Below, one piece after another: positions 6,150 through 36,839 of a stretch of DNA of 48,384 nt. Origin of the DNA: Burkholderiales bacterium (GTDB lineage: Bacteria; Pseudomonadota; Gammaproteobacteria; Burkholderiales; Burkholderiaceae_C); NCBI GenBank assembly GCA_028864885.1, contig JAGWLR010000019.1, forward strand, positions 1 to 48,384, read 5' to 3'. The stretch's first letter is position 1; the number at the start of each line of letters is the position of its first letter. Below the pieces are notes generated by a model that saw only the letters and a program-made list of their open reading frames with translations, did no database searches and was not told the origin of the DNA. The position numbers were made by a program, and so were the translations under genes.

Positions 6150-6263
6150 GGCGGCACGATACACACTTCTTTACCCACACACCACAGGCGGTTTACCCCG
6201 GCGGCCCAACATGAATTCATCCAAGGGCGCGGAGTGCGCTCTGAGCAACACAGGAGCATCAAC

Positions 6264-6797: not shown

Positions 6798-6813
6798 GCT
6801 GGGAGGGCGCAAA

Positions 6814-7539: not shown

Positions 7540-8924
7540 AGACCCTGGCGTTGCGGATTTACCTGGCGGTCGTGACCGTCTTGCTGATTTTTGCCCTGGT
7601 CACAGGCTGGCTGGCGCAGCGCCACATGGTTCAGGAGCGCACGCAGTTCCAAAGCCAGGCCATTTGGCGCGAGCGCGCCATTGCCTGGGCCGAGTTGCTC
7701 GAAAACAGCCTGCCCTCGGTCGATCAACCGGAAGAGCTGCAAGCGCAGGTCTTTCTTGAGTGGGCCGACCGATTGCGTTTGCCCATGGCGCTGGACAGTG
7801 CGGATGGCCGCCGGCTGGCCACATCCCACGAACTAGAGCAGCGATTGGCTGGTGGCGGTGACTCTTTGGCCAACCTGACCCAGATTCAGTTGAGCGATGG
7901 GCGCGTGCTGTGGGTGTTGCGGCCGGCCTTCATGCGCAGCCATCCTCGCTTCAGTCTGATCCCGCCGCCAGCGGGGCATCGTTCGCCTCTGCCGCCAGGC
8001 GAATCGTTGTTGGGGCCCTTGGCTTGGTTGTTGCCCCCATGGATTGCCCGAGGTGCGCCTGCCTTGATCATGTCGCTGGTGCTCTTGTTCATCGCCGTTG
8101 CGGCCGGGGCATGGCCTGTGGCCAACCGGCTGACACGGCGTTTGCAAGCTTTGCGCAGTGGGGTGGAGGCCTTTGGTTCCGGGCAACTTCAGCACCGGGT
8201 GGCGGTCGAAGGTCGAGACGAAGTGGCCTCGTTGGCCAAGAGCTTCAACGATGCGGCGCAGCGCATTGAAGACCTCGTGACCTCGAATCGCAATCTTTTG
8301 GCCAATGCGAGTCACGAACTGAGGTCGCCGTTAGCGCGGATGAAGATGGCCGTGTCTTTGATGGGCGACATGCCGCCAGCGCGGGCTGCCCAACTCAAGG
8401 AAGAAATTCATCAAGACATCTCAGAACTGGATGCCTTGGTCGAAGAGGTGCTGCTTGCCAGCCGCCTTGATGCCAAGACAGAAATATCTGTTTTGCCCGT
8501 TGATCTACTGGGCATGGCTACGGAAGAGGCCTCCAGGGTGGGGGCAGAGGTGTCGACATTTCCCGATGCGACGGCAATTCAGCCCTATCCGGGGGATGAG
8601 CGTTTGTTGCGTCGAGCCATGCGCAACTTGCTTGAAAACGCGAAGCGCTATGGCGGACCCCATCCGGGCATCGTGCTGACGTTGACAGAGCAACAGGGTT
8701 CGGTGTCCATCAGCGTCAGTGACCGAGGGCCCGGTGTGCCAGTCGATCAACGTGAGCGGATTTTCGAGCCCTTCTATCGTATGCCGGGTCATGCGGAGCA
8801 TGCTGGGGGCGTCGGACTGGGCTTGAGTCTGGTGCGCCAAATTGCCCTGCGTCACAACGGCAGCGTCAAATGCGACTCGCCCCCCGAGGGCGGGGGGCGA
8901 TTCACGATCACCTTGCCGAGGTGA
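7536..8924 (+). CDS. sensor histidine kinase (CpxA/EnvZ-like)
   Basis: A 462-residue membrane kinase, ATG overlapping the regulator's stop. TM1 at about 7-27, a periplasmic sensor region of about 145 residues and TM2 at about 170-192 are followed by a HAMP linker (NRLTRRLQALRSG...). The H-box has His260 in NASHELRSPLARMK. The N-box RNLLENAKRYG, G1 DRGPGVP, F-box IFEPFYR and G2 GVGLGLSLV follow, so the kinase appears complete. The Spy/CpxP-like neighbour suggests it senses envelope or metal stress. Two perfect hairpins lie in its last 17 codons, at the junction with the convergent ugd gene. Confidence 0.95.
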   Translation: MKTLALRIYLAVVTVLLIFALVTGWLAQRHMVQERTQFQSQAIWRERAIAWAELLENSLPSVDQPEELQAQVFLEWADRLRLPMALDSADGRRLATSHELEQRLAGGGDSLANLTQIQLSDGRVLWVLRPAFMRSHPRFSLIPPPAGHRSPLPPGESLLGPLAWLLPPWIARGAPALIMSLVLLFIAVAAGAWPVANRLTRRLQALRSGVEAFGSGQLQHRVAVEGRDEVASLAKSFNDAAQRIEDLVTSNRNLLANASHELRSPLARMKMAVSLMGDMPPARAAQLKEEIHQDISELDALVEEVLLASRLDAKTEISVLPVDLLGMATEEASRVGAEVSTFPDATAIQPYPGDERLLRRAMRNLLENAKRYGGPHPGIVLTLTEQQGSVSISVSDRGPGVPVDQRERIFEPFYRMPGHAEHAGGVGLGLSLVRQIALRHNGSVKCDSPPEGGGRFTITLPR

Positions 8925-10324: not shown

Positions 10325-11428
10325 TCAGGCACGGGCGTCGCCCCACCTGAGGGTGGTCGATTCGTCGCCTTGGTAAGTCGTCTTGCCTGAGCGATCAACG
10401 CAATAGACCGGCGAGGCCACGACATCTTCAAATTTCGCGCCTTCGCTGAGGCGGGTGTATTCAAACAGCACACTGCGTTTGACCGTGCTGCTTTGGCGCA
10501 GCAGGCTGCCATGGCCGATCCAGGCCGGCCCTTCGATCGTCACGCCAGGTTCAATGCAGGTGCTCGATCCGATGTAAACGGGGCCGGTGATGTGGACCGT
10601 GTCCCAGTCCACGCGGGTGTTCAGCCCCACCCAGACGCCGGGGCGGATCTCACGGCCGGGCATGTCCATCTGGGCAATCTCGCCCTTCAGCACGCGCTGG
10701 CAAACTGCCCAATAGTCGCTGACCCGCCCGATGTCGATCCAGTTGAAGTGTCGGGTCTGGGCATAGAAGGGCAGGTTTTTTTCGACCAGCAGAGGAAAGA
10801 GCTGGCTACCAATGTCGAATTCTTGGCCTGGCGGAATCAAGTCGAATACCTGCGGCTCAAAGATGTAGATGCCTGTGCTGGCCAGATTCGATTTAGCCTC
10901 GGCGGGGGAGGGCTTTTCCTGGAAAGACGTCACCTTGCCCGACTTGTCGGCCACGACGATGCCATAGTTCTTGACCTGATCTTCGGGGACGGGCAGCGTC
11001 ACCACGCTAGCCAGCGCGCCTTTGGTGCGGTGCTCGAATAACGCGGCTTTGATGTCCAAGTCGATGATCGCGTCCCCACACAGCACGATTGTGGTTTCGT
11101 CAAAAAAGCCGCTGAAATCCTGAATGCGCCGCATCCCGCCAGCCGATCCCAAGGGCTTGGGAACGATCTCGCCATGTTCGCGCGCCCCTTCGTAGGCGTA
11201 GCCAATGTTGATCCCCCAACGATGACCGTCACCAAAATAGTTTTCGATCTTCCAATGGTTGAACGCGACGTTGACCATGATGTCTGTCACGCCATAGCGC
11301 GCGAGGTGCTCGATAATGTATTCCATCACCGGCTTGCCCAGGATGGGCACCATGGGTTTAGGCGTTTGTTTGGTCAGAGGGCGCACTCGGGTTCCTTGTC
11401 CCGCCGCCAAGATCATCGCTTTAGCCAT
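10325..11428 (-). CDS. NDP-sugar pyrophosphorylase with left-handed beta-helix tail (copy 1)
   Basis: A 367-residue nucleotidyltransferase. The start at ATG 11428 (MAKAMILAAGQGTR) is set by the family signature; a longer reading to 11512 adds 28 unlikely residues. The GT-A-type domain has AAGQGTRVRPLTKQTPKPM, GSAGGMR and the metal-binding CGDAIIDLD. Residues about 255-340 form hexapeptide-type repeats (VYIGSSTCIEPGVTIEGPAWIG). The family includes mannose-1-phosphate guanylyltransferases and glucose-1-phosphate nucleotidyltransferases, and the nucleotide cannot be decided here. A paralogue of identical length is encoded at 35616-36719. No clear RBS is present; the upstream DNA is AT-rich with TATATT at 11442-11447 (minus strand). 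Confidence 0.9.
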   Translation of the reverse strand: MAKAMILAAGQGTRVRPLTKQTPKPMVPILGKPVMEYIIEHLARYGVTDIMVNVAFNHWKIENYFGDGHRWGINIGYAYEGAREHGEIVPKPLGSAGGMRRIQDFSGFFDETTIVLCGDAIIDLDIKAALFEHRTKGALASVVTLPVPEDQVKNYGIVVADKSGKVTSFQEKPSPAEAKSNLASTGIYIFEPQVFDLIPPGQEFDIGSQLFPLLVEKNLPFYAQTRHFNWIDIGRVSDYWAVCQRVLKGEIAQMDMPGREIRPGVWVGLNTRVDWDTVHITGPVYIGSSTCIEPGVTIEGPAWIGHGSLLRQSSTVKRSVLFEYTRLSEGAKFEDVVASPVYCVDRSGKTTYQGDESTTLRWGDARA

Positions 11429-11508
11429 TTCGCTATACGAAAATATAGTCAAGTATTTGTCCATCATGCAACAGTCAAAGCCGTTTGCGTTTTTCGAGTT
11501 AAGTGTTT

Positions 11509-11523
11509 CCACCTAAATGGTGG
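11509..11523. promoter_or_regulatory. inverted repeat CCACC-TAAAT-GGTGG in divergent promoter region
   Basis: A perfect 5-bp dyad with AT spacer sits between the divergent pyrophosphorylase (starts 11428) and rfbB (starts 11605), 81 and 82 bp from the two starts. The central position suits an operator governing both nucleotide-sugar operons. No factor can be named. Confidence 0.3.
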
Positions 11524-11604: not shown

Positions 11605-12696
11605 ATGATTTTGATTACGGGTGCCGCCGGTTTCATCGGCGGCAATTTTGTTCACCATTGGTTTGAGCGTCTGGCCAGCAAGGGTCGGGCCACAGAATCG
11701 GTGGTGGTCTACGACAAGCTGACTTATGCCGGCAACCCCGCCACCATTGAGGCTCATTTGAAGTCTGGTCGCGCTACCTTGGTGCAGGCTGATGTGGCCG
11801 ATCGTCAAGCTGTCCGTGCGGCGCTGGCGCAATACAAGCCCCGAGCCGTTTTGCACTTTGCCGCTGAAAGCCACGTGGATCGGTCCATCCACGGACCCGA
11901 CGAATTCATTCAGACCAACGTCGTCGGCACCTTCAGCCTGCTCGAAGAGTGCCGTGCTTACTGGTCAGCGATGAGTGAGGCCGATCGGGCAGCGTTCCGG
12001 TTCCTGCATGTGTCGACCGACGAGGTCTATGGTTCCTTGGCCGACACCGATCCGCCCTTTTCTGAAACCACACCCTACGCGCCCAACAGCCCGTACTCGG
12101 CCAGCAAGGCGGGCAGCGACCACTTGGTGCGCGCCTATCACCACACATACGGGTTCCCGACGCTGACCACCAACTGCAGCAACAACTACGGCCCCTATCA
12201 CTTCCCTGAAAAACTCATCCCGCTGATGATCCTCAATGCCCTGGAGGGCAAGCCTTTGCCGGTGTATGGTGATGGCTTGAACATCCGCGATTGGCTGTTT
12301 GTGCGGGATCACTGTGAGGCCATTTGCCAGGTTCTGGAAAAAGGTCGGGTGGGCGAAACCTACAACGTGGGCGGCAAGAACGAGATCCGCAACATCGATG
12401 TGGTCACCACCATCTGCCGCAAGCTGGATGCGCTGCGGCCAAAGGCATCGGGTCGATACGAAGACCAGATCACCTATGTCACTGACCGCCCCGGGCATGA
12501 TCGTCGTTATGCCATCGATCCGACCAAGATTGAGCGTGAGATCGGATGGCAACCTGCTGAGTCGTTTGAATCGGGCATCGACAAGACCGTGCGCTGGTTC
12601 CTGGAGAACACCGAATGGATTGAGACGGTTCGATCTGGAGCCTACCGGGATTGGATGCGCCTGAACTACCAAAGTCGCGAAGGCGGCAGGGCATGA
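11605..12696 (+). CDS. rfbB: dTDP-glucose 4,6-dehydratase
   Basis: A 363-residue extended SDR enzyme, second step of dTDP-L-rhamnose synthesis. The NAD+-binding [11 protein letters not shown] is at residues about 6-16. The active site has Thr138-Asp139-Glu140 (STDEVYGS), which marks the dehydratase, and Tyr164/Lys168 in [22 protein letters not shown] and [11 protein letters not shown] are also family signatures. It is the first gene of the rfbBDAC operon and overlaps rfbD by 4 bases. The ATG at 11605 has only a modest RBS (ACGAGG). Cytosolic. Confidence 0.97.
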
Positions 12697-13580
12697 AGAT
12701 CCTGTTGCTGGGCAAGAACGGACAAGTCGGCTGGGAACTGAGTCGATCCCTGCAAACATTGGGTGAGGTGATCGCGACGGGTTCGTCCGACCTGAATGTG
12801 GCGGATGCTGCCGCGCTCTCGGCTCGGGTGCGAACCCTGAAGCCTGATGTCATTGTCAATGCCGCGGCCTACACCGCTGTCGACAAGGCAGAGTCCGAGT
12901 CAGACCTCGCGCGGGCGATCAATGCCGAAGCGCCTGCCGTGCTGGCGCGAGAGGCCGCTGAGCTTGGCGCATTGCTGGTGCACTACAGCACCGACTATGT
13001 GTTCGACGGATCGGGGAACACGCCCCGAAACGAGCAGGCGGCCACCGGTCCCTTGAGCGTCTATGGTGTCACCAAACTGGCTGGTGAGCAGGCGATTGCA
13101 GCCAGCGCATGCCGGCATCTCATTTTTCGCACCAGTTGGGTCTATGCGGCGCGCGGCGGTAATTTCGCCAAGACGATGCTGCGCCTGGCCTCGGAGCGCG
13201 ATCAACTGAAAGTGGTGGCCGATCAATTTGGTGCCCCCACCGGCGCAGACCTGATCGCCGACGTTACGGCCCACGCGATCCGAAGAACCCTGGATGAGCC
13301 CGCGCGGCAAGGTCTCTATCACCTGGTGGCGGCAGGCGAGACGACCTGGTTTGATTACGCACGATATGTCATCGAATGGGCCCGCACTCAGGGGCGGGCG
13401 ATCAAGGTGGCGCCAGATCAGATCCATGCCATTGCCACCACCGAATTTCCCGTACCCGCCAAGCGGCCGCTCAATTCAAGGCTGGACACACACAAGTTGC
13501 GATCAGCATTTGATGTTCATCTGCCCGCGTGGCAATGGGGCGTTGAGCGCATGCTCGCTGAATACACGAGCCAAGCGTGA
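12693..13580 (+). CDS. rfbD: dTDP-4-dehydrorhamnose reductase
   Basis: A 295-residue SDR reductase making dTDP-L-rhamnose, the last step of the pathway. The start ATG 12693 overlaps the rfbB stop (ATGA). The N-terminus has the NADPH motif [13 protein letters not shown]. The catalytic pair is Tyr124/Lys128 in YGVTKLAGE, with [10 protein letters not shown] and [14 protein letters not shown] as further signatures. Length is normal. Product is cytosolic and acts directly after RfbC. Confidence 0.97.
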
Positions 13581-13597
13581 ATGATCAAGGAACCGAT

Positions 13598-14482
13598 ATG
13601 ACCAAAAGAAAAGGCATCATTTTGGCGGGAGGCTCCGGCACCCGCCTGCATCCAGCCACCCTGGCCATCAGTAAACAGCTGTTGCCTGTGTATGACAAGC
13701 CGATGGTGTACTACCCACTCAGCACGCTTATGCTGGCGGGTATTCGAGACATCCTGCTGATCAGCACGCCTCAGGACACACCACGCTTTCAGGCTCTGCT
13801 GGGCGATGGCAGTCAGTGGGGGGTCAATCTGAGCTACTGCGTTCAACCCAGTCCCGATGGCTTGGCCCAGGCATTCATTCTTGGGCGTGATTTTGTCGGC
13901 AACGATCCCAGCGCGCTGGTTTTGGGTGACAACATTTTCTATGGTCATGCGTTTCAAGACTTGCTCTCCAACGCTGCTGCGCGTGACGACGGGGCCAGTG
14001 TCTTTGCTTATCACGTGCACGACCCCGAGCGCTACGGTGTGGTCGATTTCGATGCGCGACATCGAGCCCTGAGCATTGAAGAAAAGCCCAAGCAGCCCAA
14101 GAGCAACTACGCCGTCACAGGCCTCTATTTCTACGACAATCAGGTCTGTGACATCGCAGCCAGTATTCGGCCCAGCCCACGCGGTGAACTCGAAATCACC
14201 GATGTGAATGCCACCTACCTGAAGCAAGGGCAGTTGAGTGTTGAGATCATGGGTCGTGGCTATGCCTGGCTCGACACCGGTACACATGACAGCCTGCTAG
14301 AGGCGGGGCAGTTCATCGCCACCCTTGAGCGGCGTCAAGGCCTGAAGGTGGCGTGCCTTGAAGAGGTCGCATACCGTTGGGGCTGGATCACCGCCGAGCA
14401 GGTCGAGAAGATGGCGCAGCCGATGCTCAAGAATGGCTACGGGCAATACCTGCTCAAGGTCATCAACGAAAAGATTTACTGA
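13598..14482 (+). CDS. rfbA: glucose-1-phosphate thymidylyltransferase
   Basis: A 294-residue enzyme that joins glucose-1-phosphate and dTTP, the first step to dTDP-L-rhamnose. ATG 13598 ([19 protein letters not shown]) has AAGGA 7-8 bases upstream and agrees with family starts; a GTG at 13577 would overlap rfbD. Signatures are [23 protein letters not shown], the metal-binding LGDNIFYG, and [15 protein letters not shown]. It is third in the rfb operon, 17 bases after rfbD. Complete and normal in length. Confidence 0.97.
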
Positions 14483-14490
14483 TTGATTCG

Positions 14491-15054
14491 ATGAAACTGA
14501 TTCCCACCCGCATTCCTGATGTTGTTTTGATCGAGCCGGCCGTGTTCGGTGACGATCGCGGCTGGTTCATGGAAAGCTTCAACCAGGCCAAATTTGAAGC
14601 TGAATTGACGCGCCTGGGCTTGCCCGTTCCACGGCCTTTTGTGCAAGACAACCATTCCTGCAGCAAGGCGGGTGTGCTGCGTGGCTTGCACTATCAGCTG
14701 CCGCCGCACCCGCAGGGCAAGCTGGTGCGCGTGGTTCAAGGCGCGGCCTTTGATGTGGCGGTTGACATTCGCAAGGGTTCGCCAACCTTCGGGCAGTGGG
14801 TGGGATATGAGTTGTCCGCCAGTAATCGTCGGCAACTCTGGATTCCGGAAGGGTTCGCGCATGGGTTTCTGGCCTTGCAGGACGACACTCATTTTCTCTA
14901 CAAGACCACGGACGTCTACGCCAAGGATTGCGAGCGCAGCATTCTTTGGTCTGATCCGGCCATCGGTATCGAGTGGCCCTTGACAGGACTGTCGCCCAAT
15001 CTGGCTCCGAAGGATTTGCAGGCGCCTGTCTTGAGTGACGCTGATGCCTTCTGA
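14491..15054 (+). CDS. rfbC: dTDP-4-dehydrorhamnose 3,5-epimerase
   Basis: A 187-residue cupin enzyme, third step to dTDP-L-rhamnose. ATG 14491 lies 8 bases after the rfbA stop. Family signatures are DDRGWFMESFNQAKF, the catalytic-His region FVQDNHSCSKAGVLRGLHYQ, the segment KLVRVVQGAAFDVAVDIRKG, and WIPEGFAHGFLAL. Tyr in TTDVY is the expected second catalytic residue. It ends the rfbBDAC set, which is thus complete, and its last bases overlap the start of the UPF0104 gene by 11 bases. Confidence 0.97.
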   Translation: MKLIPTRIPDVVLIEPAVFGDDRGWFMESFNQAKFEAELTRLGLPVPRPFVQDNHSCSKAGVLRGLHYQLPPHPQGKLVRVVQGAAFDVAVDIRKGSPTFGQWVGYELSASNRRQLWIPEGFAHGFLALQDDTHFLYKTTDVYAKDCERSILWSDPAIGIEWPLTGLSPNLAPKDLQAPVLSDADAF

Positions 15055-15958: not shown

Positions 15959-17401
15959 ATGAATGTTGAATGGGACATGTCTGACAAGACCCCGATTTGT
16001 GTGGACCTTGATGGATCTCTGATTCACAGCGATCTGCTGCTCGAGTCCTTTTTGTTGTTGCTCAAGCGCAATCCCATTTACCTTTTGCTGGTTCCCCTCT
16101 GGCTGTTGCGAGGCAAAGCGGTTCTCAAGGCCGAGATTGCCAAGCGTGTTGACCTCAATGCGGCTGTGTTGCCCTACACCCAAGCCTTTGTGGTGTGGTT
16201 GCGTGAACAGCTCGCGCTGGGGCATCCAATCTGGTTGTGCACTGCTTCTGATCAACGATTAGCGCAAGGCGTAGCTGACCATCTGCAGTGTTTCGATGGG
16301 GTTCTGGCCAGCGACGGCGTGACCAACCTGTCCGGGCGGCGCAAGGCGCAAGCCCTGGTCGATCGCTTCGGTGAAAAAGGCTTTATTTACTGTGGCAATC
16401 ACTCGGTCGATCTGGCCGTGTGGTCCCACGCGCGACAAGCCGTGGTCGTCAATGCCTCGCCTGCATTGGCTGAGCGCGCGGCTCAGGTGGCGCCTGTCTC
16501 GGTATCGTTTCCTTCTGCGGGTGCCGGTTTCAAGCTGTGGCTCAAGGCCCTGCGCGTTCACCAATGGGCCAAGAACGCCTTGATCTTCGTTCCGGTTGCA
16601 GCTGCCCATAAGCTCGCAGACGTTTCTGCGGTATCGCATGCTTTGATCGCGTTCGTCGCGTTCAGCCTTTGTGCCTCGTCGGTTTATCTGCTCAACGATC
16701 TGCTCGACCTGGAGTCCGATCGGGCACATCACAGCAAATGTCATCGACCTTTCGCGTCGGGGCGGCTGAGCCTTCTGCATGGCTTGTTGCTGGCACCCTT
16801 GCTGCTGATGATGGCCTTAGTATTGAGTGTGGCGTGGGTCTCCTTGCCTTTCGTTGGCGTTTTGCTGGCCTACTACGTCGTCACCCTGGCTTACAGCTTT
16901 GGGCTCAAGCGCATCGTGATGATTGATGTTCTTACGCTGGCAGGCTTGTACACCGTGCGTATTGTGGCGGGGGCTGCTGCCACCAGCATCCCCTTGTCGT
17001 TCTGGTTGCTGATGTTCTCGATCTTCATCTTCCTGAGCCTGGCAATCGTCAAGCGCTACGCCGAGTTGTATGTCATGCGAGAGAAGGGCAAGCTGTCAGC
17101 TTTCGGCCGCGGCTACCGTGTGGAGGATCTGAGCCTGCTTCAAAACCTCGGCAGCGCATCCGGCTATCTGAGCATTCTGGTGTTGGCCCTCTATGTCAAT
17201 TCGCCTGAGATCAGCGTCATGTATCACCATCCCAAAATCGTGTGGTTGCTGGTGCCGGTGATGCTGTATTGGGTCAGCCGGATTTGGGTTGAAACTCACC
17301 GCGGCAACATGCACGATGATCCGCTGGTTTATGCCTTGAAGGATCGCGTTAGTTTGCTGACAGGCGTGGTTGCAGCGGTGGTGCTGTGGCTGGCCATGTG
17401 A
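15959..17401 (+). CDS. HAD phosphatase-UbiA prenyltransferase fusion (polyprenyl-phosphate phosphoribosyltransferase type)
   Basis: A 480-residue two-domain protein. Residues about 10-190 are a HAD-type phosphatase with nucleophile motif DLDGS (Asp16, Asp18), the TAS motif II and later acidic residues. Residues about 200-480 are a UbiA-family membrane domain of about eight TMs with the first Asp motif NDLLDLESD (246-254, Mg2+/phosphate site), HRPFASGRL, and the second motif YSFGLKRIVMIDVLTLAG. This second part resembles decaprenyl-phosphate 5-phosphoribosyltransferase (mycobacterial UbiA, Rv3806c; rhizobial NoeC). In mycobacteria the phosphate is then removed by a separate phosphatase; here a phosphatase is fused. 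The next two genes complete the route. Start may be ATG 15959 or 15977. Confidence 0.9.
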   Translation: MNVEWDMSDKTPICVDLDGSLIHSDLLLESFLLLLKRNPIYLLLVPLWLLRGKAVLKAEIAKRVDLNAAVLPYTQAFVVWLREQLALGHPIWLCTASDQRLAQGVADHLQCFDGVLASDGVTNLSGRRKAQALVDRFGEKGFIYCGNHSVDLAVWSHARQAVVVNASPALAERAAQVAPVSVSFPSAGAGFKLWLKALRVHQWAKNALIFVPVAAAHKLADVSAVSHALIAFVAFSLCASSVYLLNDLLDLESDRAHHSKCHRPFASGRLSLLHGLLLAPLLLMMALVLSVAWVSLPFVGVLLAYYVVTLAYSFGLKRIVMIDVLTLAGLYTVRIVAGAAATSIPLSFWLLMFSIFIFLSLAIVKRYAELYVMREKGKLSAFGRGYRVEDLSLLQNLGSASGYLSILVLALYVNSPEISVMYHHPKIVWLLVPVMLYWVSRIWVETHRGNMHDDPLVYALKDRVSLLTGVVAAVVLWLAM

Positions 17402-17413
17402 TGAGGTATCGTG

Positions 17414-18772
17414 ATGCCCTCGAAGACCCAGCACATCACCTCATGGGGCCGGGCCCATCGCGCCGAACATCAGGTGCAGGATCTCGTCGACCGGCATCGT
17501 CCCTGGTTGCCCAGTGAGGGCGATAACGGTTCGCCAGGTTCGTCGTGGTTGCCTTTTGGCAATGGCCGCAGCTATGGCGACAGCAACCTGAATCCTGGCG
17601 CGGGCTTGCTTCGCACCACCCGGCTCGACCGATTCATCAATTTTGATCCTGCCACCGGCGTGTTGCGCTGTGAGGCTGGCGTGCTGCTGTCTGACATCCT
17701 TCGTCTCGTCGTGCCCCAAGGCTGGTTTCTGGCGGTCACGCCGGGCACCCAATTCGTGACGGTGGGTGGGGCGATCGCCAACGATGTGCACGGCAAGAAT
17801 CATCACGTCGCCGGCTCTTTCGGTAACCACGTGCGGCAGTTTGAATTGCTTCGCTCTGATGGGAGCCGACGCCTTTGTTCTCCGCTGGACCATACCGATT
17901 GGTTCCAGGCCACGATCGGTGGCTTGGGCTTGACCGGCTTGATCACCTGGGCTGAGATCCAGTTGCGCCGGATTGCCAACCCCTGGATGGATTCGGAGAC
18001 TGTGCGGTTTCGAAGCGTCGACGAGTTCTTCGAACTCAGCGCAGCATCTGAAGCCAGTCACGAGTACACCGTGTCGTGGATTGATTGCGCGTTTGCAGGC
18101 CGACGCCTGGGGCGCGGGTTGTTCAATCGGGCCAACCACGCCCCCGCGATTTGTCAGCCTCAGTGGCTCGATCGCGATTTATCCGCAGGTGTGGTCGAGC
18201 ACACGCGAACGGTGCCGTTTACACCCCCCGTCTCGCTGATCAACCAAGCATCCTTGAAGGCATTCAACACCCTGTACTACCACCGTCAGCGTGGCGATGC
18301 ACGGCGCGAGTTGCAGCACTACCGCCCGTTCTTTTATCCACTCGATGCCTTGCTGCAATGGAACCGCATCTACGGGCCGCGTGGGTTTTATCAATACCAG
18401 TGTGTGGTCCCGCCCAAGGCGGCCCTGCAAGCCACCAAACGCCTGCTTGAGATCATTGCGGCCAGTGGTCAAGGCTCGTTTCTGGCGGTGCTCAAGCAGT
18501 TTGGCCAGGTGCCTTCGCTCGGCCTGCTGTCCTTTCCTGAGGAGGGCACCACCTTGGCCCTCGACTTCCCGAACCGAGGCGCACGTTTGCATCGCTTGTT
18601 CGACGCGCTGGATCAGGTCGTGCTTGAGCATGGCGGTCGGCTGTACCCAGCGAAAGACGGCCGCATGTCGGCCCCGGTCTTTCAGGCTGGCTACCCGCAG
18701 TGGCGGAACTTTCAATCGTTTGTAGACCCCCGCATCAGCTCCGGCTTTTGGCGCAGGGTGATGGAGGCTTGA
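17414..18772 (+). CDS. DprE1-like FAD-dependent polyprenylphosphoryl-ribose 2'-oxidase
   Basis: A 452-residue FAD enzyme of the vanillyl-alcohol-oxidase fold. The FAD-binding half has FGNGRSYGDSNLNPG and VTPGTQFVTVGGAIANDVHG, followed by KNHHVAGSFGNHVRQFELL, nearly the DprE1 pattern. The substrate half has WNRIYGPRGFYQYQ and GGRLYPAKDGRM, also conserved in DprE1. The known reaction is oxidation of polyprenylphosphoryl-beta-D-ribose at C2, the first half of epimerisation to D-arabinose. Its start ATG 17414 is 12 bases after the UbiA-fusion stop, and its stop touches the DprE2-like ATG. Membrane-associated, cytoplasmic or periplasmic face not decided. Function inferred from family plus the gene trio. 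Confidence 0.9.
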   Translation: MPSKTQHITSWGRAHRAEHQVQDLVDRHRPWLPSEGDNGSPGSSWLPFGNGRSYGDSNLNPGAGLLRTTRLDRFINFDPATGVLRCEAGVLLSDILRLVVPQGWFLAVTPGTQFVTVGGAIANDVHGKNHHVAGSFGNHVRQFELLRSDGSRRLCSPLDHTDWFQATIGGLGLTGLITWAEIQLRRIANPWMDSETVRFRSVDEFFELSAASEASHEYTVSWIDCAFAGRRLGRGLFNRANHAPAICQPQWLDRDLSAGVVEHTRTVPFTPPVSLINQASLKAFNTLYYHRQRGDARRELQHYRPFFYPLDALLQWNRIYGPRGFYQYQCVVPPKAALQATKRLLEIIAASGQGSFLAVLKQFGQVPSLGLLSFPEEGTTLALDFPNRGARLHRLFDALDQVVLEHGGRLYPAKDGRMSAPVFQAGYPQWRNFQSFVDPRISSGFWRRVMEA

Positions 18773-19509
18773 TGAAAAAAATTCTGATCGTCGGGGCTAA
18801 CTCGGCCATTGCACAGGCTTGTGCCAGACGTTGGGTTCAACGCGGCGATGCGGTGTTCCTGGCGGCACGCAGCGCTGACGCATTGAACGCTCAGGTGCAG
18901 GATCTGACGGTGCGAGGTGCCAAGCAAATTGGCTCTCGCGTGTTCGACGCCAACCAGCTGGACGATCATGCCGCTCTGATTCAGGCTGCCAGCGAGGCTT
19001 TGGGTGGCTTGGACGGCATCTTGATTGCGCACGGCACCCTGACGGATCAAGCACGGGCTCAGGCTGATGTGAGCTATGCCTTGTCTGAGATTGCCACCAA
19101 CGGCACATCAGTCATCTCGTTGATGTCGCTGGCGGCCGAGCAGTTCGCCCAACAGGGCCGGGGCAGCATCGCGGTGATTTCTTCGGTGGCGGGTGATCGA
19201 GGCCGGCAAAGCAATTACGTCTACGGCAGTGCCAAAGCGCTGGTGTCGGCGTTTGCCTCCGGATTGCGTCAGCGCATGCACAAATGCGGCGTGTCGGTCT
19301 CGACCATCAAACCTGGATTTGTCGATACCCCCATGACGGCATCTTTCAAGAAGGGCGCGCTGTGGGCCCAGCCGGATCAAGTGGCCAAGGACATTGTCAA
19401 AGCCATGGAGCAAGGCAAGGCCGTGGTGTACACGCCGGGTTTCTGGCGGCTGATCATGCTGATCATCAGGCACATTCCCGAGCGTGTGTTTGTGAAGTTG
19501 ACACTTTGA
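18772..19509 (+). CDS. DprE2-like short-chain reductase
   Basis: A 245-residue classical SDR. It has the NAD(P)H motif VGANSAIAQACARRW at residues about 6-20, the catalytic Ser (ISSVAGDRG) and Tyr-x-x-x-Lys (YGSAK). A C-terminal amphipathic or hydrophobic tail (WRLIMLIIRHIPERVF) is typical of DprE2, which reduces the 2-keto intermediate to polyprenylphosphoryl-beta-D-arabinose. ATG 18772 overlaps the DprE1-like stop by one base (TGATGA), so the two subunits are made together. A hairpin follows the stop, ending this operon. Alone, an SDR could not be assigned; the adjacency and tail support the call. Confidence 0.88.
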   Translation: MKKILIVGANSAIAQACARRWVQRGDAVFLAARSADALNAQVQDLTVRGAKQIGSRVFDANQLDDHAALIQAASEALGGLDGILIAHGTLTDQARAQADVSYALSEIATNGTSVISLMSLAAEQFAQQGRGSIAVISSVAGDRGRQSNYVYGSAKALVSAFASGLRQRMHKCGVSVSTIKPGFVDTPMTASFKKGALWAQPDQVAKDIVKAMEQGKAVVYTPGFWRLIMLIIRHIPERVFVKLTL

Positions 19510-19512
19510 TGA

Positions 19513-19540
19513 CAAGGGGCCGTGCGGCCCCTTGATTCCT
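19513..19540 (+). terminator. hairpin terminator after the DprE2-like gene
   Basis: CAAGGGGCC (19513-19521) and GGCCCCTTG (19526-19534) form a perfect 9-bp stem with a GTGC loop, four bases after the stop. The following ATTCCTTC is only moderately T-rich. It probably ends the rfb/DPA transcript and separates it from the epsF operon. Confidence 0.7.
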
Positions 19541-19637
19541 TCAGATGTGGGGAGTTGCTTAGGCCATTCGGCTCAGACTACGTTTTGTCATACTCGATCC
19601 CTAGACTGGTCGTCGTACTGCAAAACGAGAGTCGTGT

Positions 19638-21065
19638 ATGACGTTCCAGCTCCTCTTTGCCATCGTTCGCGCACGATGGCTTGTGGCTTCTAGCGTGTTT
19701 GCGCTGATCTTTGCGTCGGTCGCAGCCTTCACCTGGCTGATGCCCAAGAACTATACGGCCAACGCTTCGATCATCCTGGACATCAAGGGGCAGGACCCCA
19801 TCGCTGGCTATGTGTCCCCTGCCTTGGCCTCGCCCACCTACCTTATGACGCAGGTGGATGTGGTGACGAGCAATCGCGTGGCCCTCAAGGTGGTGCATCG
19901 CCTGCGTTTGAATGAATCCACGGAAATGCGCCAGAAGTGGCTGCAGGCTACCAAGGGCGTCGGCAGCTTCGAGTCTTGGTTGGCGAACTTGATCAAGGCC
20001 AACCTGGAGGCCCATCCCTCACGAGGGTCGAACGTGATCTATCTGTCGTACCAGGCGACAGACCCAAACTTTGCTGCTGCAGTCGCCAACGGTTTTGTGC
20101 AGGCCTATCTGGATACGACTCTGGAGCTGCGAACAGCGCCAGCCAAGCAGTACAACGATTTCTTTGACGAGAATGCTCGTTCTCTGCGCAGTGCCTTGGA
20201 AAAGGCCCAGGCACGCTTGTCCGCTTATCAGCAACAGCAAGGCTTATTAGTCAACGATGAACGCTTCGACGTTGAGACCGCACGTCTGAACGAATTGTCC
20301 TCGCAATATGTGTTGACGCAGGCAGCGGTGGCGGATTCGGGTAGCCGTCAGGCGGCGGCAGCAGCCCAAGGTGACAAGTCACCTGATGTGCTCAACAACC
20401 CGATCATTGCCGGCCTGAAGACGGATCTGAACCGGCAAGAAGCCGCGCTGGAGCAACTGGCGACCCGTTTGGGTGATCGCCATCCTGCAGTCGTTGAGGC
20501 CAAGAGCGGGATCGACGAACTCAAACGCAAGCTGGAGTTGGAGGTTCGCCGCGTCAGCAGCAGCGTTGGCGTGGGCAACTCGGTGAACGTCAGCCGAGCC
20601 GCTCAGATCAAGCTGGCTTTGGATGAGCAGCGGGCCAAGGTGTTGAAGATGAAGGCTGTTCGTGATGAGGCTGAGATGCTGCAGCGCGATGTGGACAACG
20701 CACAGCGAGCGTATGAAGGGGTGGTGGCCCGCATGAATAGCACCAGTCTGGAAAGCCAAGCGAATCAAGCCAATATCAGTGCGCTGGAGATGGCAACACC
20801 ACCGTCAGTTCCTTCTAGCCCCCGGGTACTCAGCAATTTGGCGCTAGGGATCTTGGTCGGATCCGTGCTCGCCGTTTGCATGGCTCTGTTGATCGAGCGA
20901 TTTGATCCACGCCTGCGTGCGCCGTCCGATGTGGAGCACCTCTTTCAGTTGCCGCAAATCGGCGTCATTCCGGCTTTCCAGCAACGTACGTTTTCCGGGC
21001 GTTGGCTGGATCGCTTGGCCCTTAAACGTCCCACTGTCAAGGCTTTGAGCCACAAGGTCGCATGA
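19638..21065 (+). CDS. epsF: EPS chain-length determinant protein (EpsF, Wzz/PCP type)
   Basis: A 475-residue inner-membrane polysaccharide co-polymerase. TM1 is at about 14-36, then a large periplasmic domain with a long coiled-coil (residues about 175-385, rich in Glu, Gln, Ala and Leu). TM2 is at about 405-428 before a short cytosolic tail with LIERFDPRLR. The pre-TM2 Pro-rich segment (ATPPSVPSSPRV) is the usual Wzz motif. The EpsF subfamily sits beside EpsG and exosortase B, as here. It controls polymer length, probably regulated by the kinase encoded next. First gene of the operon after a 128-base leader; the ATG at 19638 overlaps nothing upstream. Its end overlaps epsG by 4 bases. Confidence 0.93.
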   Translation: MTFQLLFAIVRARWLVASSVFALIFASVAAFTWLMPKNYTANASIILDIKGQDPIAGYVSPALASPTYLMTQVDVVTSNRVALKVVHRLRLNESTEMRQKWLQATKGVGSFESWLANLIKANLEAHPSRGSNVIYLSYQATDPNFAAAVANGFVQAYLDTTLELRTAPAKQYNDFFDENARSLRSALEKAQARLSAYQQQQGLLVNDERFDVETARLNELSSQYVLTQAAVADSGSRQAAAAAQGDKSPDVLNNPIIAGLKTDLNRQEAALEQLATRLGDRHPAVVEAKSGIDELKRKLELEVRRVSSSVGVGNSVNVSRAAQIKLALDEQRAKVLKMKAVRDEAEMLQRDVDNAQRAYEGVVARMNSTSLESQANQANISALEMATPPSVPSSPRVLSNLALGILVGSVLAVCMALLIERFDPRLRAPSDVEHLFQLPQIGVIPAFQQRTFSGRWLDRLALKRPTVKALSHKVA

Positions 21066-21940
21066 TCAACGCCAATCGTAGCTCGGCGGCGGAGGATCCC
21101 GCCACGCAAGACGCCTTTCTTGGCGACATCTTGCAAAAAACCAATGGATTGTCTGTCGCTCAAATCCAGGACACCTTGGCCTATCAGCGTGAACACGGCA
21201 TGCGGTTTGGCGAAGCAGCGGTGGCATTGGGCTTCGCGAAGCCGGACGATGTGGTCTGGGCTCTGGCCCAGCAGTTTCGATATCCCTATGCACCGAAGTC
21301 GCTGGGTACTGAACAAGGCGAGCTGGTCGTCGCCAACGATCCTTTCAACGAAGACGTCGAATCTTTCAGAGATTTGCGTTCGCAGTTGGCGATGGGCGTG
21401 TTTGGCGAAGGACAAGCGCGTCAAGCGTTGGCCATCCTGAGTTCAGATATCGGGGATGGCAAGACATTTGTCGCAGCCAATTTGGCGGTGGCGTTCAGTC
21501 AGCTCCCGGGTCGCACTCTGGTAATCGATGCGAATTTGCGCGAACCCCGCATGCATGAAGTCTTTGGCGTCGAGCAAGACGCCGGCTTGTCTGGCGTGTT
21601 GGCTGGTCGATCGCAGCCCAATGTGATCAAACCCATCGCGCATCTGCCCAATCTGTATCTGATGCCGGCAGGGGTTCTCGCGCCCAACCCTGCCGAGTTG
21701 CTGCAGGGTCCCGCTTTCAGCCTGTTCTTGACTGAACTGCACAGTCGATTCGACTACATCGTGGTCGATACGCCTGCGGCCTCCGTGGGCGCCGATGCAC
21801 GCGTCATCGCGACCCATTGTGGTTCAGCCCTGATCGTGGGGCGAGCCAATCGCAGTCGCCTGATGGGCATGCAGTCTCTTGTCAAATTGCTGAATAAAAG
21901 CAAAGTCAAGATGGCTGGCGTGTTGATGAATCAATTTTGA
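21062..21940 (+). CDS. epsG: EPS chain-length tyrosine kinase (EpsG) with MshEN-like N-terminus
   Basis: A 292-residue cytosolic BY-kinase. The ATP site has Walker A GDGKT (Gly131-Thr135), Walker A' LVIDANLREPRM (Asp156) and Walker B VVDTP (Asp236). The C-terminus ends MAGVLMNQF and lacks the Tyr-rich cluster of Wzc-type kinases. Residues about 17-75 form a separate small domain with GDILQKTNGLSVAQIQDTL and RFGEAAVALGFAKPDDVVWA, resembling the GspE N-terminal (MshEN) fold that can bind cyclic di-GMP. That is my inference; EpsG subfamily members commonly have this extension. It acts with EpsF to set chain length. It overlaps epsF (ATGA) and is followed by xrtB after 5 bases. Confidence 0.93.
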   Translation: MINANRSSAAEDPATQDAFLGDILQKTNGLSVAQIQDTLAYQREHGMRFGEAAVALGFAKPDDVVWALAQQFRYPYAPKSLGTEQGELVVANDPFNEDVESFRDLRSQLAMGVFGEGQARQALAILSSDIGDGKTFVAANLAVAFSQLPGRTLVIDANLREPRMHEVFGVEQDAGLSGVLAGRSQPNVIKPIAHLPNLYLMPAGVLAPNPAELLQGPAFSLFLTELHSRFDYIVVDTPAASVGADARVIATHCGSALIVGRANRSRLMGMQSLVKLLNKSKVKMAGVLMNQF

Positions 21941-21945
21941 CTGTC

Positions 21946-22875
21946 ATGTCTGCACCCGCCGTCGATACCTTGCCCATTGCATCCAAGCGCGGTGATGCAT
22001 GGTTGCCCTTGCCACTGGATGTGGTCGCGCTGGTGCTGGCCCTCATCCTCTTTTATGGGATGACCGTTTTCCGCCTTTTGCAGAATGATTCAGGCGGCTT
22101 GTGGAGCCAGGGCGAGCACAGCCATGGGCCGATCATGTTGACGTTGTCGATGTGGCTTTATGTCACTCGTTGGCGTGAACACACGCGAGAGCACAGCCTG
22201 AACAGTCGCGGTCAAGGGCTGGCCTGGCCTGTGCTGCTCATAGCCCTGATTCTGTTTGTTGCCGGGCGGTCGCTTGGCATCATCTACTTTGAAGTGGGCT
22301 CTTACATCCCCATGATGGCGGCGGTGGCCTTGCTGATGGGGGGACGAGACTTGCTCATGACCTTGAAGTTTCCGATTTTCTTCGCGATCTTCATGGTGCC
22401 TCTTCCCGGCTTCATTCTCGACCCCATCAGTCACTTCGTGAAGTTGAAGATTTCGATGGCGGTGACGGAGTTGCTCTGGCCCCTTGGCTATCCGATCAGC
22501 CATACCGGTGTGGTCATCACGGTCGGGCCTTACCAACTCTTGGTGGCCGATGCCTGCGCCGGGATGCGAACCCTGTTCATGATGGAAGCCATGGGCATCT
22601 TCTATTTGAACGTGATCCGACACAGCTCAGTGATTCGCAATGTTGGGTTGGCGATGCTGATCGTGCCGATTTCGTTTGTGGCCAACATGACCCGTGTGTT
22701 GTTTTTGACCTTGATCACCTATCACTTTGGTGACGAAGCGGGGCAAGGGTTTCTGCATGGCTTTGCAGGCATCGTTTTGTTTGCCACCGCCATGTTCTTG
22801 ATGATGGGCATCGATACCTTGCTGCGGCGCTTCTCCTTCCATTGGGAAAAAAGGCAAAAAGGGAAAGCGACATGA
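21946..22875 (+). CDS. xrtB: exosortase B
   Basis: A 309-residue inner-membrane protein with about eight TM segments, a predicted transpeptidase-like enzyme. The exosortase triad is visible: Cys204 in VADACAGMRTLFM, Arg250 in NMTRVLF and His271 in FLHGFAG. Start ATG 21946 is chosen since the TTG at 21937 would overlap epsG. The XrtB subclass is restricted to EPS loci with EpsI and the EpsF/EpsG pair, as here. Exosortases cleave PEP-CTERM tails of exported proteins, but no protein in this window carries such a tail. Its stop overlaps the EpsI start by 4 bases. Confidence 0.94.
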   Translation: MSAPAVDTLPIASKRGDAWLPLPLDVVALVLALILFYGMTVFRLLQNDSGGLWSQGEHSHGPIMLTLSMWLYVTRWREHTREHSLNSRGQGLAWPVLLIALILFVAGRSLGIIYFEVGSYIPMMAAVALLMGGRDLLMTLKFPIFFAIFMVPLPGFILDPISHFVKLKISMAVTELLWPLGYPISHTGVVITVGPYQLLVADACAGMRTLFMMEAMGIFYLNVIRHSSVIRNVGLAMLIVPISFVANMTRVLFLTLITYHFGDEAGQGFLHGFAGIVLFATAMFLMMGIDTLLRRFSFHWEKRQKGKAT

Positions 22876-23600
22876 AGCTTTCTTCCTACCTTCGGCCCAT
22901 GTCGTTGCGGCCGCTCTACCTGATCTTGTTTGTTGGTCTGATGGCGCTGTCATGGCTTTTGGCCGAGCAACTGCGCCCCCACCGCTACTGGTCCGACGAG
23001 ATCGGCAATCCGCACTATGCAGACCTTCTCCCAGCATCGTTTGGCGACTGGGTCGATTTGCCTGAAGCCTCGGCGGCGGTGGTCAATCCGGTTCAGGCCG
23101 AGATGCTTGACCGCATCTACAGTGAAACGGTGGCGCGCACATATGTCAATCGACGCAGCGGTCGGGTCCTCATGCTGTCGCTCGCTTATGGGCGAGACCA
23201 ATCCACCGACACCCAGTTGCACACGCCTGACATGTGCTACCCCTCACAGGGCTTCCGGGTCGATCAGATGGTGAGAGCACCGCTCTCCACCCCCTGGGGC
23301 GCCATCAAGGCGGTCCGAATGCACGCGGTCATGGGGGAGCGCGTCGAACCGATTACCTATTTCGTTCGCACAGGCAATCGAGTTACCGATGGGTCGCTGG
23401 AGCGAAACCTGACTCGCTTGGGATTGGCCATCCGAGGCTACAAGATGGATGGGCTGCTGTTTCGCGTGTCTGAAGTAACTGAAAATCCAGATGCTTTTGA
23501 GGTGCAATCCCGGTTTATCGACCAACTGTTGGCCACCCTGTCAGCCGAGGATCGCGCCAAATTCATCGGGCAAACCAAGCCGGCGGAGCCCCTTCCATGA
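22872..23600 (+). CDS. epsI: EpsI family protein
   Basis: A 242-residue protein with one N-terminal TM (about 15-35) and a periplasmic domain. The EpsI pattern is present: W/YVNRRSGR...LMLSLAYG, then RDQSTDTQLHTPDMCYPS with its conserved His, Pro and Cys, and later YFVRTGN. EpsI occurs next to, or fused to, exosortases and is thought to assist EPS export; no enzymatic reaction is established. It overlaps xrtB and the wzx gene by 4 bases each, so it is in the middle of a translationally coupled chain. Confidence 0.92.
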   Translation: MKLSSYLRPMSLRPLYLILFVGLMALSWLLAEQLRPHRYWSDEIGNPHYADLLPASFGDWVDLPEASAAVVNPVQAEMLDRIYSETVARTYVNRRSGRVLMLSLAYGRDQSTDTQLHTPDMCYPSQGFRVDQMVRAPLSTPWGAIKAVRMHAVMGERVEPITYFVRTGNRVTDGSLERNLTRLGLAIRGYKMDGLLFRVSEVTENPDAFEVQSRFIDQLLATLSAEDRAKFIGQTKPAEPLP

Positions 23601-24889
23601 CCGGGATGCGAGCCCGAATTGGCGCCGCTTTGGGCGCAGGTGCATTTGGTCAGTTGGTCAGCATGGCCATTCAGGTGGTCTCGTTACCGCTGTTTTTGGG
23701 GGTGTGGACCAAAGAGCAATACGGCACCTGGTTGATGCTGTCGGCCGTGCCAGCCTATTTCTCGATGGCCGATGTGGGGATGGTGGCCGCTGCGGGCAAT
23801 CGCATGACGATGGAGGTGGCACGAGGCGATGTGGCCGCGGCCAATCGTATCTTCCACAGTGCCACGGTGTTCATGCTCTGGGTGTGTGGTGGCATTGCGG
23901 CGTGTGTCACCTTGGTGCTTTTGAGTGGGCGCACGGGGATTGATCCTGACCAAGCCGTGGCCGTCTGGCTGTTGATGGGCACGGTGCTGTTGTCACTGTT
24001 TTCTGGCTTGACCGAGGCTGCGTTCAAGGCAACCGGCAGGTATGCTCAGGGAACGTTCTGGGGAAACGTGCTTCGATTGCTTGAGTGGTCGGGTACCTTG
24101 TTCGCCTTGGCGACGGTGGGCACTTTTCCTGCGGTCGCAGCAGGCGGGTGTGTGGCCAGGGCGTTGGGTACCCTCTGGGTGATCCGCCAGTCCTCTCGTG
24201 ATGCACAGGGGCTGCGATGGGGTGTTGACCAGGCCAATGCCCAGGATGTGCGCGAGATCGTCACCCCCGCCTTGTCTTTCATGGCTTTTCCGTTGGCGAA
24301 TGCGCTGACATTCCAGGGCGGAACCTTGCTGGTCGGGCATTTGCTCGGGCCGGCCTGGGTTGCCATCTTTACGGCAGTACGAACCCTGGCTCGGTTGGCC
24401 GTCCAAACAACGGCCATTCTTGCGCATGCTTTGTGGGCCGAGATTACTGGACTGTATGCGCGCGGGCAGATGGCCGTGCTCCATCAACTCTATCTGCGCT
24501 TCGCCTGGCTGACTGCAGCTGGCTCTGCTGTGCTCAGTTTGGTCTTGTATTTCATTGGGCCTGATTTGCTGCGAATCTGGAGCCACGGGAAGATCCCCTT
24601 CGTCGCCAGTTTGATGGGGGTGTTGCTCGCCTATGCCGCCATTGGTGGCAGCTGGCATGTGCCTCGGGTTGTCTTGATGGCTTGCAACAAACATGTTCGG
24701 TTGGCCCCCTTGTCGGTTCTGGTGTCAGCGCTCTGGCTGGGCTTGGGCTACGCATTGGGCCGGCAGTGGGGCATTGACGGTGTCGCCTGTGCCATGCTGG
24801 TGGCAGAACTGGCCATGCTGCTGATCAGTGTCACGTTGGCTTCCGATCTCTTCAGTCGCCGACAGCAGTCAGGTGCGTACGCATCATGA
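23597..24889 (+). CDS. Wzx-type polysaccharide flippase (copy 1)
   Basis: A 430-residue polytopic membrane protein (about 12 TMs) of the MATE/Wzx superfamily. It begins MRARIGAALGAGAFGQLVSM with the loop FLGVWTKEQYGTWLMLSAVPAYFSMADVGM, a characteristic Wzx start. It would move undecaprenyl-linked repeat units across the inner membrane. Its start overlaps epsI and its end overlaps the next glycosyltransferase by 4 bases. A second Wzx-type gene lies at 39475. RBS is not obvious, which fits translational coupling. Substrate cannot be read from sequence. Confidence 0.9.
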   Translation: MTGMRARIGAALGAGAFGQLVSMAIQVVSLPLFLGVWTKEQYGTWLMLSAVPAYFSMADVGMVAAAGNRMTMEVARGDVAAANRIFHSATVFMLWVCGGIAACVTLVLLSGRTGIDPDQAVAVWLLMGTVLLSLFSGLTEAAFKATGRYAQGTFWGNVLRLLEWSGTLFALATVGTFPAVAAGGCVARALGTLWVIRQSSRDAQGLRWGVDQANAQDVREIVTPALSFMAFPLANALTFQGGTLLVGHLLGPAWVAIFTAVRTLARLAVQTTAILAHALWAEITGLYARGQMAVLHQLYLRFAWLTAAGSAVLSLVLYFIGPDLLRIWSHGKIPFVASLMGVLLAYAAIGGSWHVPRVVLMACNKHVRLAPLSVLVSALWLGLGYALGRQWGIDGVACAMLVAELAMLLISVTLASDLFSRRQQSGAYAS

Positions 24890-32497: not shown

Positions 32498-32518
32498 TCA
32501 GGCCTTGAACAGGCCTGA
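32498..32518. terminator. perfect hairpin over the DUF1501 stop codon at a convergent junction
   Basis: TCAGGCCT (32498-32505) and AGGCCTGA (32511-32518) pair over 8 bp, loop TGAAC. The first three bases are the minus-strand stop codon of the DUF1501 gene. There is no T-run on either side. It resembles the hairpin at 8906-8926 in size, loop length and stop-codon overlap. It may be a bidirectional end signal for the two convergent transcripts. Confidence 0.5.
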
Positions 32519-33910: not shown

Positions 33911-33913
33911 GGT

Positions 33914-36719: not shown

Positions 36720-36839
36720 GGTGGAACGAGCTGAATGGCGCAATTAAGACACGGCCATGTTTCAGGCTGGTGTCAATTCATTGCGATAGGTGCGGGTTCG
36801 GGAAGAAAAGTTCCCACGGGCTATGGCACCCGGTCCGTA

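Follow-up and report, generated by a model that had tools for sequence, protein, structure and literature searches.

The 48,384-nucleotide contig JAGWLR010000019.1 from the Burkholderiales bacterium assembly GCA_028864885.1 (here the window, which is the whole stretch of DNA analysed and an entire contig, C161, of this 3.54-Mb assembly, G000) carries four consecutive genes that very probably constitute a donor module for D-arabinofuranose (Araf), equipped with a flippase of the MprF fold and served by a transferase encoded elsewhere. The genes encode a membrane protein of family PF03706, a fusion of a HAD phosphatase with a UbiA-type polyprenyl-phosphate phosphoribosyltransferase (PRTase), a DprE1-like oxidase and a DprE2-like reductase. 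An earlier note on this DNA had described the last three, here confirmed as adjacent open reading frames (ORFs), as a complete module; the flippase-type gene directly upstream, which it missed, belongs with them. D-arabinofuranose is best known from mycobacterial cell walls, and the module predicts it in most genomes of the genus. Flippases for lipid-phosphate sugars represent a weakly understood step of extracytoplasmic glycosylation, and the MprF-fold clade analyzed here, linked to the pathway in all 10 genomes of a family panel that contain a homologue, provides a concrete flippase candidate with relatives of solved structure.

Gene identity, conserved catalytic residues, predicted folds and gene linkage were computed, and from them we infer the enzyme activities, arabinose as the sugar, the role and substrate of the flippase, the lipid and the acceptor in the following scheme. 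The UbiA domain of the fusion would transfer 5-phosphoribose from phosphoribosyl pyrophosphate (PRPP) to polyprenyl phosphate, and the fused HAD domain would strip the 5-phosphate from the lipid-linked phosphoribose. Together, the DprE1-like and DprE2-like proteins would invert C2 through oxidation and subsequent reduction, yielding polyprenyl-phosphoryl-D-arabinofuranose, which the PF03706 protein would then flip across the inner membrane to the periplasm; a C-type glycosyltransferase (GT-C) encoded elsewhere would finally place the arabinose on a surface glycan. The mycobacterial decaprenylphosphoryl-arabinose pathway (Rv3806c, Rv3807c, DprE1, DprE2, Rv3789) has in common with this scheme the UbiA PRTase fold (PDB 8j8j) and the DprE1 and DprE2 relatives. 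As opposed to mycobacteria, the phosphatase in the window is a fused HAD domain and not Rv3807c, the proposed flippase is unlike Rv3789, and the lipid carrier expected in a Gram-negative bacterium is undecaprenyl phosphate.

The HAD-UbiA fusion

Taken whole, the fusion scores 664.9 bits against the NCBIfam model NF006088/PRK08238 ('UbiA family prenyltransferase'; cut-off 351). Its UbiA half reaches 155.6 bits with the decaprenyl-phosphate phosphoribosyltransferase model, below the cut-off of 207, as opposed to 31.6 bits with heme O synthase and 23.9 with 4-hydroxybenzoate octaprenyltransferase, and its closest PDB sequence is 8j8j (E 2.1e-30). The same Mycobacterium tuberculosis PRTase is the top Foldseek match (E 9e-10, target TM-score 0.84) of an AlphaFold model built from 34 sequences (predicted local distance difference test, pLDDT, 91.6), and phosphoserine phosphatases match the HAD part; the HAD half alone falls slightly under the Pfam cut-off for PF12710 (24.6 against 27 bits; E 4e-5). 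Profile scores and Foldseek thus rule out UbiA proper and heme O synthase as nearest relatives. The earlier note would have abandoned its reading had the N-terminal domain failed to match HAD or the C-terminal domain aligned better with MenA or heme O synthase; a HAD match was found, and the C-terminal domain is closest to the PRTase. Its suggestion that phosphoribosyl transfer and dephosphorylation are fused in one polypeptide is borne out by the matches to NF006088, 8j8j and phosphoserine phosphatases.

Residue conservation was likewise assessed over 34 sequences. In the HAD part, D16, K129 and D151 are invariant and D18 is kept in at least 90% of the sequences, so that the Asp16/Asp18 pair reported before is present, as is the NDLLDLESD motif. 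In the UbiA part, R199, K205, N246, D247, D250, D254, K260, R263, Y312, K317, R366 and E369 are invariant in all 34. By alignment, the first ten of these correspond to Rv3806c R22, K28, N73, D74, D77, D81, K87, R90, Y138 and K143, residues that for the most part bind PRPP or Mg2+ (PMC10994848). The exception among the catalytic positions compared is Rv3806c Q135, which corresponds to an invariant Thr309 in the fusion.

The same N-terminal HAD-UbiA fusion is found in the three-component system of Citrobacter youngae O1/O2 (ORF15 PPPRS, MATE flippase ORF14, GT136 ORF12), which was described by Kelly et al. 2024 (PMC11127046) and also shares with the window the tested residues, a separate epimerase step and an expected GT-C. 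ORF15 produces farnesyl-phosphate ribofuranose from PRPP; its D18A variant yields the 5-phosphate product with a little ribofuranose product, and variants of N247, D248, D251 and D255 were without detectable activity in vitro. Matched by motif and position alone, ORF15 N247, D248, D251, D255, R366 and E369 correspond to N246, D247, D250, D254, R366 and E369 of the fusion, which, judging from its sequence, probably has polyprenyl-phosphate ribofuranose synthase activity. The window departs from the Citrobacter system in that its flippase candidate is a PF03706 protein and not a MATE protein (the MATE-like proteins of the window are non-adjacent), in that its epimerases are DprE1-like and DprE2-like and not a short-chain dehydrogenase/reductase (SDR) such as ORF13, and in that no GT-C was found beside the module. 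A new architecture is ruled out for the fusion, assayed as it was in 2024 in ORF15, and it is widespread, with 94 relatives confirmed here. The same source reports DprE1/DprE2 homologues in candidate Araf-glycan systems, which they mark as such; the window contains both, and the association of fusion and DprE1/DprE2 with Araf is already largely published. Lipid-linked D-arabinose, the product put forward in the earlier note, hence stands as the best prediction, without the fusion being new.

The DprE1-like and DprE2-like proteins

The identities assigned before to the two remaining enzymes are upheld. The nine best PDB sequences for the DprE1-like protein are all DprE1 (best E 9.5e-78), and in the PDB alignment the lysine matching K418 is kept (K415), Asn385 is replaced by Thr, and Cys387, the target of benzothiazinones, is replaced by Ala. 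For the DprE2-like protein, DprE2 is the sole PDB match below 1e-20 (E 4.6e-34). The corresponding NCBIfam equivalogs give 375.4 bits (NF053785, cut-off 500) and 201 bits (NF053786, cut-off 250), the DprE2-like protein scoring above the cut-off of 267 for NF005489 (323.1 bits); in the Pfam and NCBIfam scans its query began one codon upstream of the ATG at 18772. Because the equivalog cut-offs of NF053785 and NF053786 are not reached, we speak of 'DprE1-like' and 'DprE2-like' proteins, and for the same reason the epimerisation to arabinose is not certain, which counts against the proposed pathway.

These scores would also agree with an end product other than arabinose, be it lipid-linked ribofuranose or a keto or other pentose. 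The fusion, as first enzyme, yields by itself a ribofuranose donor, and among the 80 fusion loci kept for classification there are 20 in which no DprE gene was seen (the stretch is short in 6 of these). Nonetheless, such a product appears quite improbable here, given the PDB relationships and the retained lysine, and given also that the start of the DprE2-like gene is most likely the ATG at 18772, sharing one base with the DprE1-like stop (18770-18772), and that the order of the two genes is kept in most relatives possessing both. In Candidimonas sp. SYP-B2681 the DprE1-like gene is split into two overlapping ORFs (L042:9416-10710), by either a frameshift or a sequencing error.

A PF03706 protein as candidate flippase

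The protein encoded directly upstream of the fusion matches Pfam PF03706 (E 1.8e-35; 123.3 bits, cut-off 33.4) and TIGR00374 (62.7 bits, cut-off 43.2). A search of PDB sequences gave no match, and all five Foldseek matches of its AlphaFold model (pLDDT 89.0) below E 0.001 are MprF structures (PDB 9j8s, 9j8q, 7duw, 9goe and 7f47), the next match lying at E 0.49. The model shares the fold of the MprF flippase region; unlike MprF, the protein has no aminoacyl synthase domain, and we propose that it carries a polyprenyl-phosphate sugar in place of lysyl-phosphatidylglycerol.

Within the genus (42 genomes; taken as Aquabacterium-like because the nearest named relatives of the window are mostly titled Aquabacterium), the fusion is present in 37 genomes, and a PF03706 gene adjoins it in 34 of the 37 loci (L086, L128-L162 and the window), some of which lie on short contigs. 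The three exceptions are L144, cut inside the fusion, L133, with less than 1 kb of upstream sequence and also without DprE genes, and L134, with no PF03706 gene in about 4 kb upstream. The 80 loci were classified over a range from 2.5 kb upstream of the fusion to 9 kb downstream by counting the flippase types PF03706, GtrA and SMR, MATE being outside the count, with hidden Markov models (HMMs) built from these same loci; Pfam itself recognised GtrA in just two loci (L080, L049) and SMR in one (L069). Gene calls for relatives are plain ORFs from high-GC DNA, their transmembrane segments being counted from hydropathy only. Both DprE genes occur in 59 loci, 33 of which have PF03706 alone and one PF03706 together with GtrA. 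The 20 loci where no DprE gene was seen have GtrA (9), SMR (3), none of the three types (7) or PF03706 (1). The sequence of this last locus, L009, ends just after the fusion; among the 80 loci, PF03706 was thus not seen at any known to lack DprE genes. The remaining locus, L057, has one DprE gene on a short stretch and no flippase of the searched types.

In a panel of 150 genomes of the family (fusion at E 1e-60 or better, PF03706 homologues at E 1e-10 or better), the fusion occurs in 20 genomes and PF03706 homologues in 10, and each of the 11 PF03706 genes either adjoins phosphoribosyltransferase or DprE1/DprE2 genes or is no more than about 7 kb away from them. Two belong to the fused module (G000, G033), and in six the neighbours are a GT-C and a UbiA PRTase that stands alone (G014, G099, G145, G130, G001 and contig 3 of G081). 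Two more (G056 and contig 1 of G081) have DprE1-DprE2 but not the fusion next to them, and a GT-C-like membrane protein is encoded nearby. The last, in G119, is separated by about 5 to 7 kb from the fusion and DprE genes of a cluster to which GtrA and a GT-C also belong. In the unfused operons, UbiA and HAD labels come from NCBIfam in L106 and L107 only (246.2 and 245.6 bits for UbiA against a cut-off of 234; a HAD-IB phosphatase is encoded across the GT-C), and the remaining UbiA proteins were labelled by our own HMM and BLAST. Panel fusion loci without DprE genes have mostly SMR. The PF03706 clade spans 31-63% identity to the window protein; deep nodes of its tree are weakly supported (35-79% in places), and no branching order is drawn.

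The best reading of this distribution is that the PF03706 protein serves the pathway, the main argument being its recurrence in fused, unfused and split arrangements, and gene linkage points to the flipping of a polyprenyl-phosphate pentose as its putative role. We consider it fairly likely, in addition, that the stand-alone MprF-fold PF03706 clade is made up of dedicated polyprenyl-phosphate pentofuranose flippases, used with fused and unfused phosphoribosyltransferases and with DprE1/DprE2, and that it thus represents a further type besides MATE, SMR and GtrA. A literature search covering few subscription papers found no publication linking the PF03706/LPG-synthase family to this pathway, for which a flippase of this type seems new.

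A number of observations weigh against this assignment. Among the 59 loci with both DprE genes, 25 are without PF03706 and carry GtrA (3), SMR (1) or none of the three types (21, of which 16 are titled Myxococcales), and the PF03706 gene is therefore not a fixed part of the pathway. In the panel, loci L087-L092, with the fusion and both DprE genes, have GtrA linked; L092, like L042, carries it in addition to PF03706. The UbiA-GT-C operons of G103 and G048 are without PF03706. Loci with both proteins or without PF03706 would agree with a co-carried lipid transporter or modifier, the flipping being done by another protein, such as one of two Wzx/MATE-like candidates of the window (23597-24889 and 39475-40866, both with Pfam scores below cut-off) or an unlinked GtrA or SMR protein; the characterised Citrobacter system has a MATE flippase (PMC11127046). 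We hold this to be unlikely, for the linkage of all 11 panel homologues extends to fusion-less operons and to operons with DprE1/DprE2 only, and PF03706 is also co-located in loci of Salinisphaera, Teredinibacter and Parvibaculum without close homologues of exopolysaccharide (EPS) genes in the stretch searched, save for one 23% EpsF-like match (L044).

Seventeen loci (L035-L040, L043, L045-L047, L050, L051, L053-L056 and L060) combine the fusion with DprE1-like and DprE2-like genes, and no PF03706, GtrA or SMR was found in them; 16 are titled as Myxococcaceae genera and L056 as Comamonas, and four of the stretches are short. Elsewhere in G000, a row of genes (C140:27913-32466; L105:14414-18967) encodes a second PF03706 protein, very distant from that of the window, a GT2 glycosyltransferase, a PMT_2 GT-C and a PAP2 phosphatase. 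The row resembles a three-component system of the hexose type whose flippase would be the PF03706 protein, and this cluster of PF03706, GT2 and GT-C suggests a broader role of PF03706 proteins in serving lipid-phosphate sugars.

The proposed arabinosyltransferase and its possible acceptor

In agreement with the earlier note, no GT-C was found in the window by NCBIfam scans of 35 proteins, Pfam scans of 19, a PMT_2 search of the genome or BLAST with GT-C-like proteins of relatives, scans that GT-Cs without a family match could escape. A protein with nine transmembrane segments (27074-28501, no NCBIfam match) is unsupported as a GT-C, its best weak match being to the Wzy polymerase family (E 0.0015, below cut-off), and searches of G000, run without a positive control, gave no counterpart of the GT-Cs beside the module in L016 and L012. 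The genome search proposed in that note yielded four PMT_2 GT-Cs elsewhere in G000. One of them, an orphan (C140:22167-23705), is the best candidate for the module's transferase, with mixed support.

The orphan GT-C has full-length homology, at 36-40% identity, to fusion-adjacent GT-Cs of other genera (L096, L098, L099, L102, L103) and is 48-55% identical to GT-Cs of unfused UbiA operons; members of its family are encoded in UbiA-PF03706-GT-C operons (6 panel genomes) and next to the fusion (another 6). In the panel, GT-C and fusion co-occur above chance (9 genomes with both, 17 and 20 of 150 with each; p 2.7e-5, kinship uncorrected), and in 6 of those 9 genomes the GT-C is the same-operon one, of a separate subfamily (40-45% identical). 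Around the orphan, BLAST detected neither a UbiA PRTase nor a module-clade PF03706 protein in G000 or in the 13 further genus loci inspected. In G000, the orphan has a distant PF03706 protein at about 8 kb, and the window contains the genome's sole PRTase match at E 0.001 (G014, as control, was positive). Against the proposed partnership, and with it the pathway as drawn, stands the presence of the orphan in 21 of the 42 genus genomes independently of the fusion (19/37 with it, 2/5 without; p 1.0), and so does its presence in G162 (98% complete) and G178 (71% complete), where no PRTase was found. The lack of co-occurrence within the genus rules out the orphan as the module's strict partner. 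A module-adjacent GT-C occurs in 6 of 18 genus genomes without the orphan and in 1 of 19 with it (p 0.04), a weak complementarity (p 0.09 when the 409-residue protein of L144 is left out; several contigs are short). The GT-Cs beside the module in L129, L134, L137, L139, L142 and probably L144 and L159 are different ones, those outside any family being labelled, without a database match, from topology and from the N-terminal acidic motifs that we take to mark GT-Cs. Hence, the transferase, and perhaps the acceptor, varies within the genus.

A precedent for an unlinked transferase is found in the pilin arabinosylation of Pseudomonas paraeruginosa (PSPA7_6245-6251, TfpW), likewise a Gram-negative D-Araf pathway, in which TfpW is encoded apart from the D-Araf genes (PMC12369383). 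The acceptor there is the pilin, and the PPPRS has no HAD domain (PMC11127046). These type IV pilins, along with the candidate systems of PMC11127046, set a Gram-negative precedent, and D-arabinofuranose in a surface glycan is not the unexpected outcome that the earlier note took it to be. The reading of the four genes as a decayed or silent remnant could appeal to an unlinked GT-C and to the fact that no product is known, yet it is extremely improbable in view of the intact frames, the invariant catalytic residues and the presence of the fusion in most of the genus.

In L106 (858-8176), LptF/LptG and an LpxF-like PAP2 phosphatase are encoded next to an unfused operon of UbiA, PF03706, GT-C and HAD genes, which suggests lipopolysaccharide (LPS) or lipid A as the acceptor in that genome.

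Genomic context of the module

Table 1. Module genes, protein domains and neighbouring features in the window
Feature	Position	Strand	Basis or remark
rmlB, rmlD, rmlA, rmlC (dTDP-L-rhamnose genes)	11605-15054	+	directly upstream of flippase-type gene
PF03706 LPG_synthase_TM / TIGR00374 flippase-like protein, 303 aa	15047-15958	+	Pfam, NCBIfam, predicted fold
HAD phosphatase-UbiA-type polyprenyl-phosphate phosphoribosyltransferase fusion, 480 aa	15959-17401	+	NCBIfam, PDB alignment, AlphaFold/Foldseek
HAD domain, about residues 11-174 (D16, D18 motif I, K129, D151)	15989-16480	+	conservation, Foldseek
UbiA/PRTase domain, residues 195-480	16541-17398	+	conservation, alignment to 8j8j chain
DprE1-like FAD oxidase, 453 aa	17411-18772	+	PDB match, NF053785
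DprE2-like SDR reductase, 245 aa	18772-19509	+	PDB match, NF053786, NF005489
GC-rich hairpin between module and epsF	19513-19534	+	RNA folding of 19505-19545
epsF, CpsD-like, exosortase B (XrtB), EpsI-B: start of EPS locus, outside module	19638-23600	+	TIGR families

The rml genes probably share an operon with the module, the rmlC ORF overlapping the start of the flippase-type gene (Table 1), for which an alternative start is possible at 15035; the fusion might also start at 15977. A promoter scan gave one promoter-like match, at 11422-11449, upstream of the rml genes, which is no more than expected by chance. At the other end of the module, within the 128-base gap before epsF, the stretch 19505-19545 folds as RNA at -20.4 kcal/mol (z -4.48); its hairpin has no strong T run and is absent from the list of a terminator scan whose yield was no more than chance. 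The EPS genes that follow match TIGR03017 (499.4 bits, cut-off 422.75) and TIGR03113 (294.5, cut-off 275), with EpsI-B just below its cut-off (216.2 against 220).

The earlier note had placed the module inside this exosortase-type locus. An EPS locus does follow, but the module is not specific to it: rmlC is near the module in 28 of the 37 genus loci and epsF directly downstream in 6, on which account the module's link within the genus is with the rhamnose genes and not with the XrtB locus. The same figures bear on the addition of arabinose to the XrtB-type exopolysaccharide as a side chain, which the EPS locus directly 3' of the module, with its several glycosyltransferases and Wzy-like protein, would make possible. 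We regard it as somewhat doubtful considering these figures, the hairpin before epsF, the failure to find a GT-C in the window and the operon of L106, which points to LPS in that genome.

Other genes of the window recur in the same neighbourhoods. Two nucleotidyltransferase genes with a nearly identical family profile (10328-11512 and 35619-36743) flank the polysaccharide region, and one or the other is near the module in many genus loci. The region also includes a DUF1501/DUF1800 pair (32501-35710), with homologues near the module in several genus loci, and a GMC-type oxidoreductase with weak similarity to pyranose oxidase (37052-38635). Finally, a CpxP/Spy-like protein, a response regulator and a histidine kinase are encoded at 6234-8924, and homologues of these two-component genes are also near the module in several genus loci.

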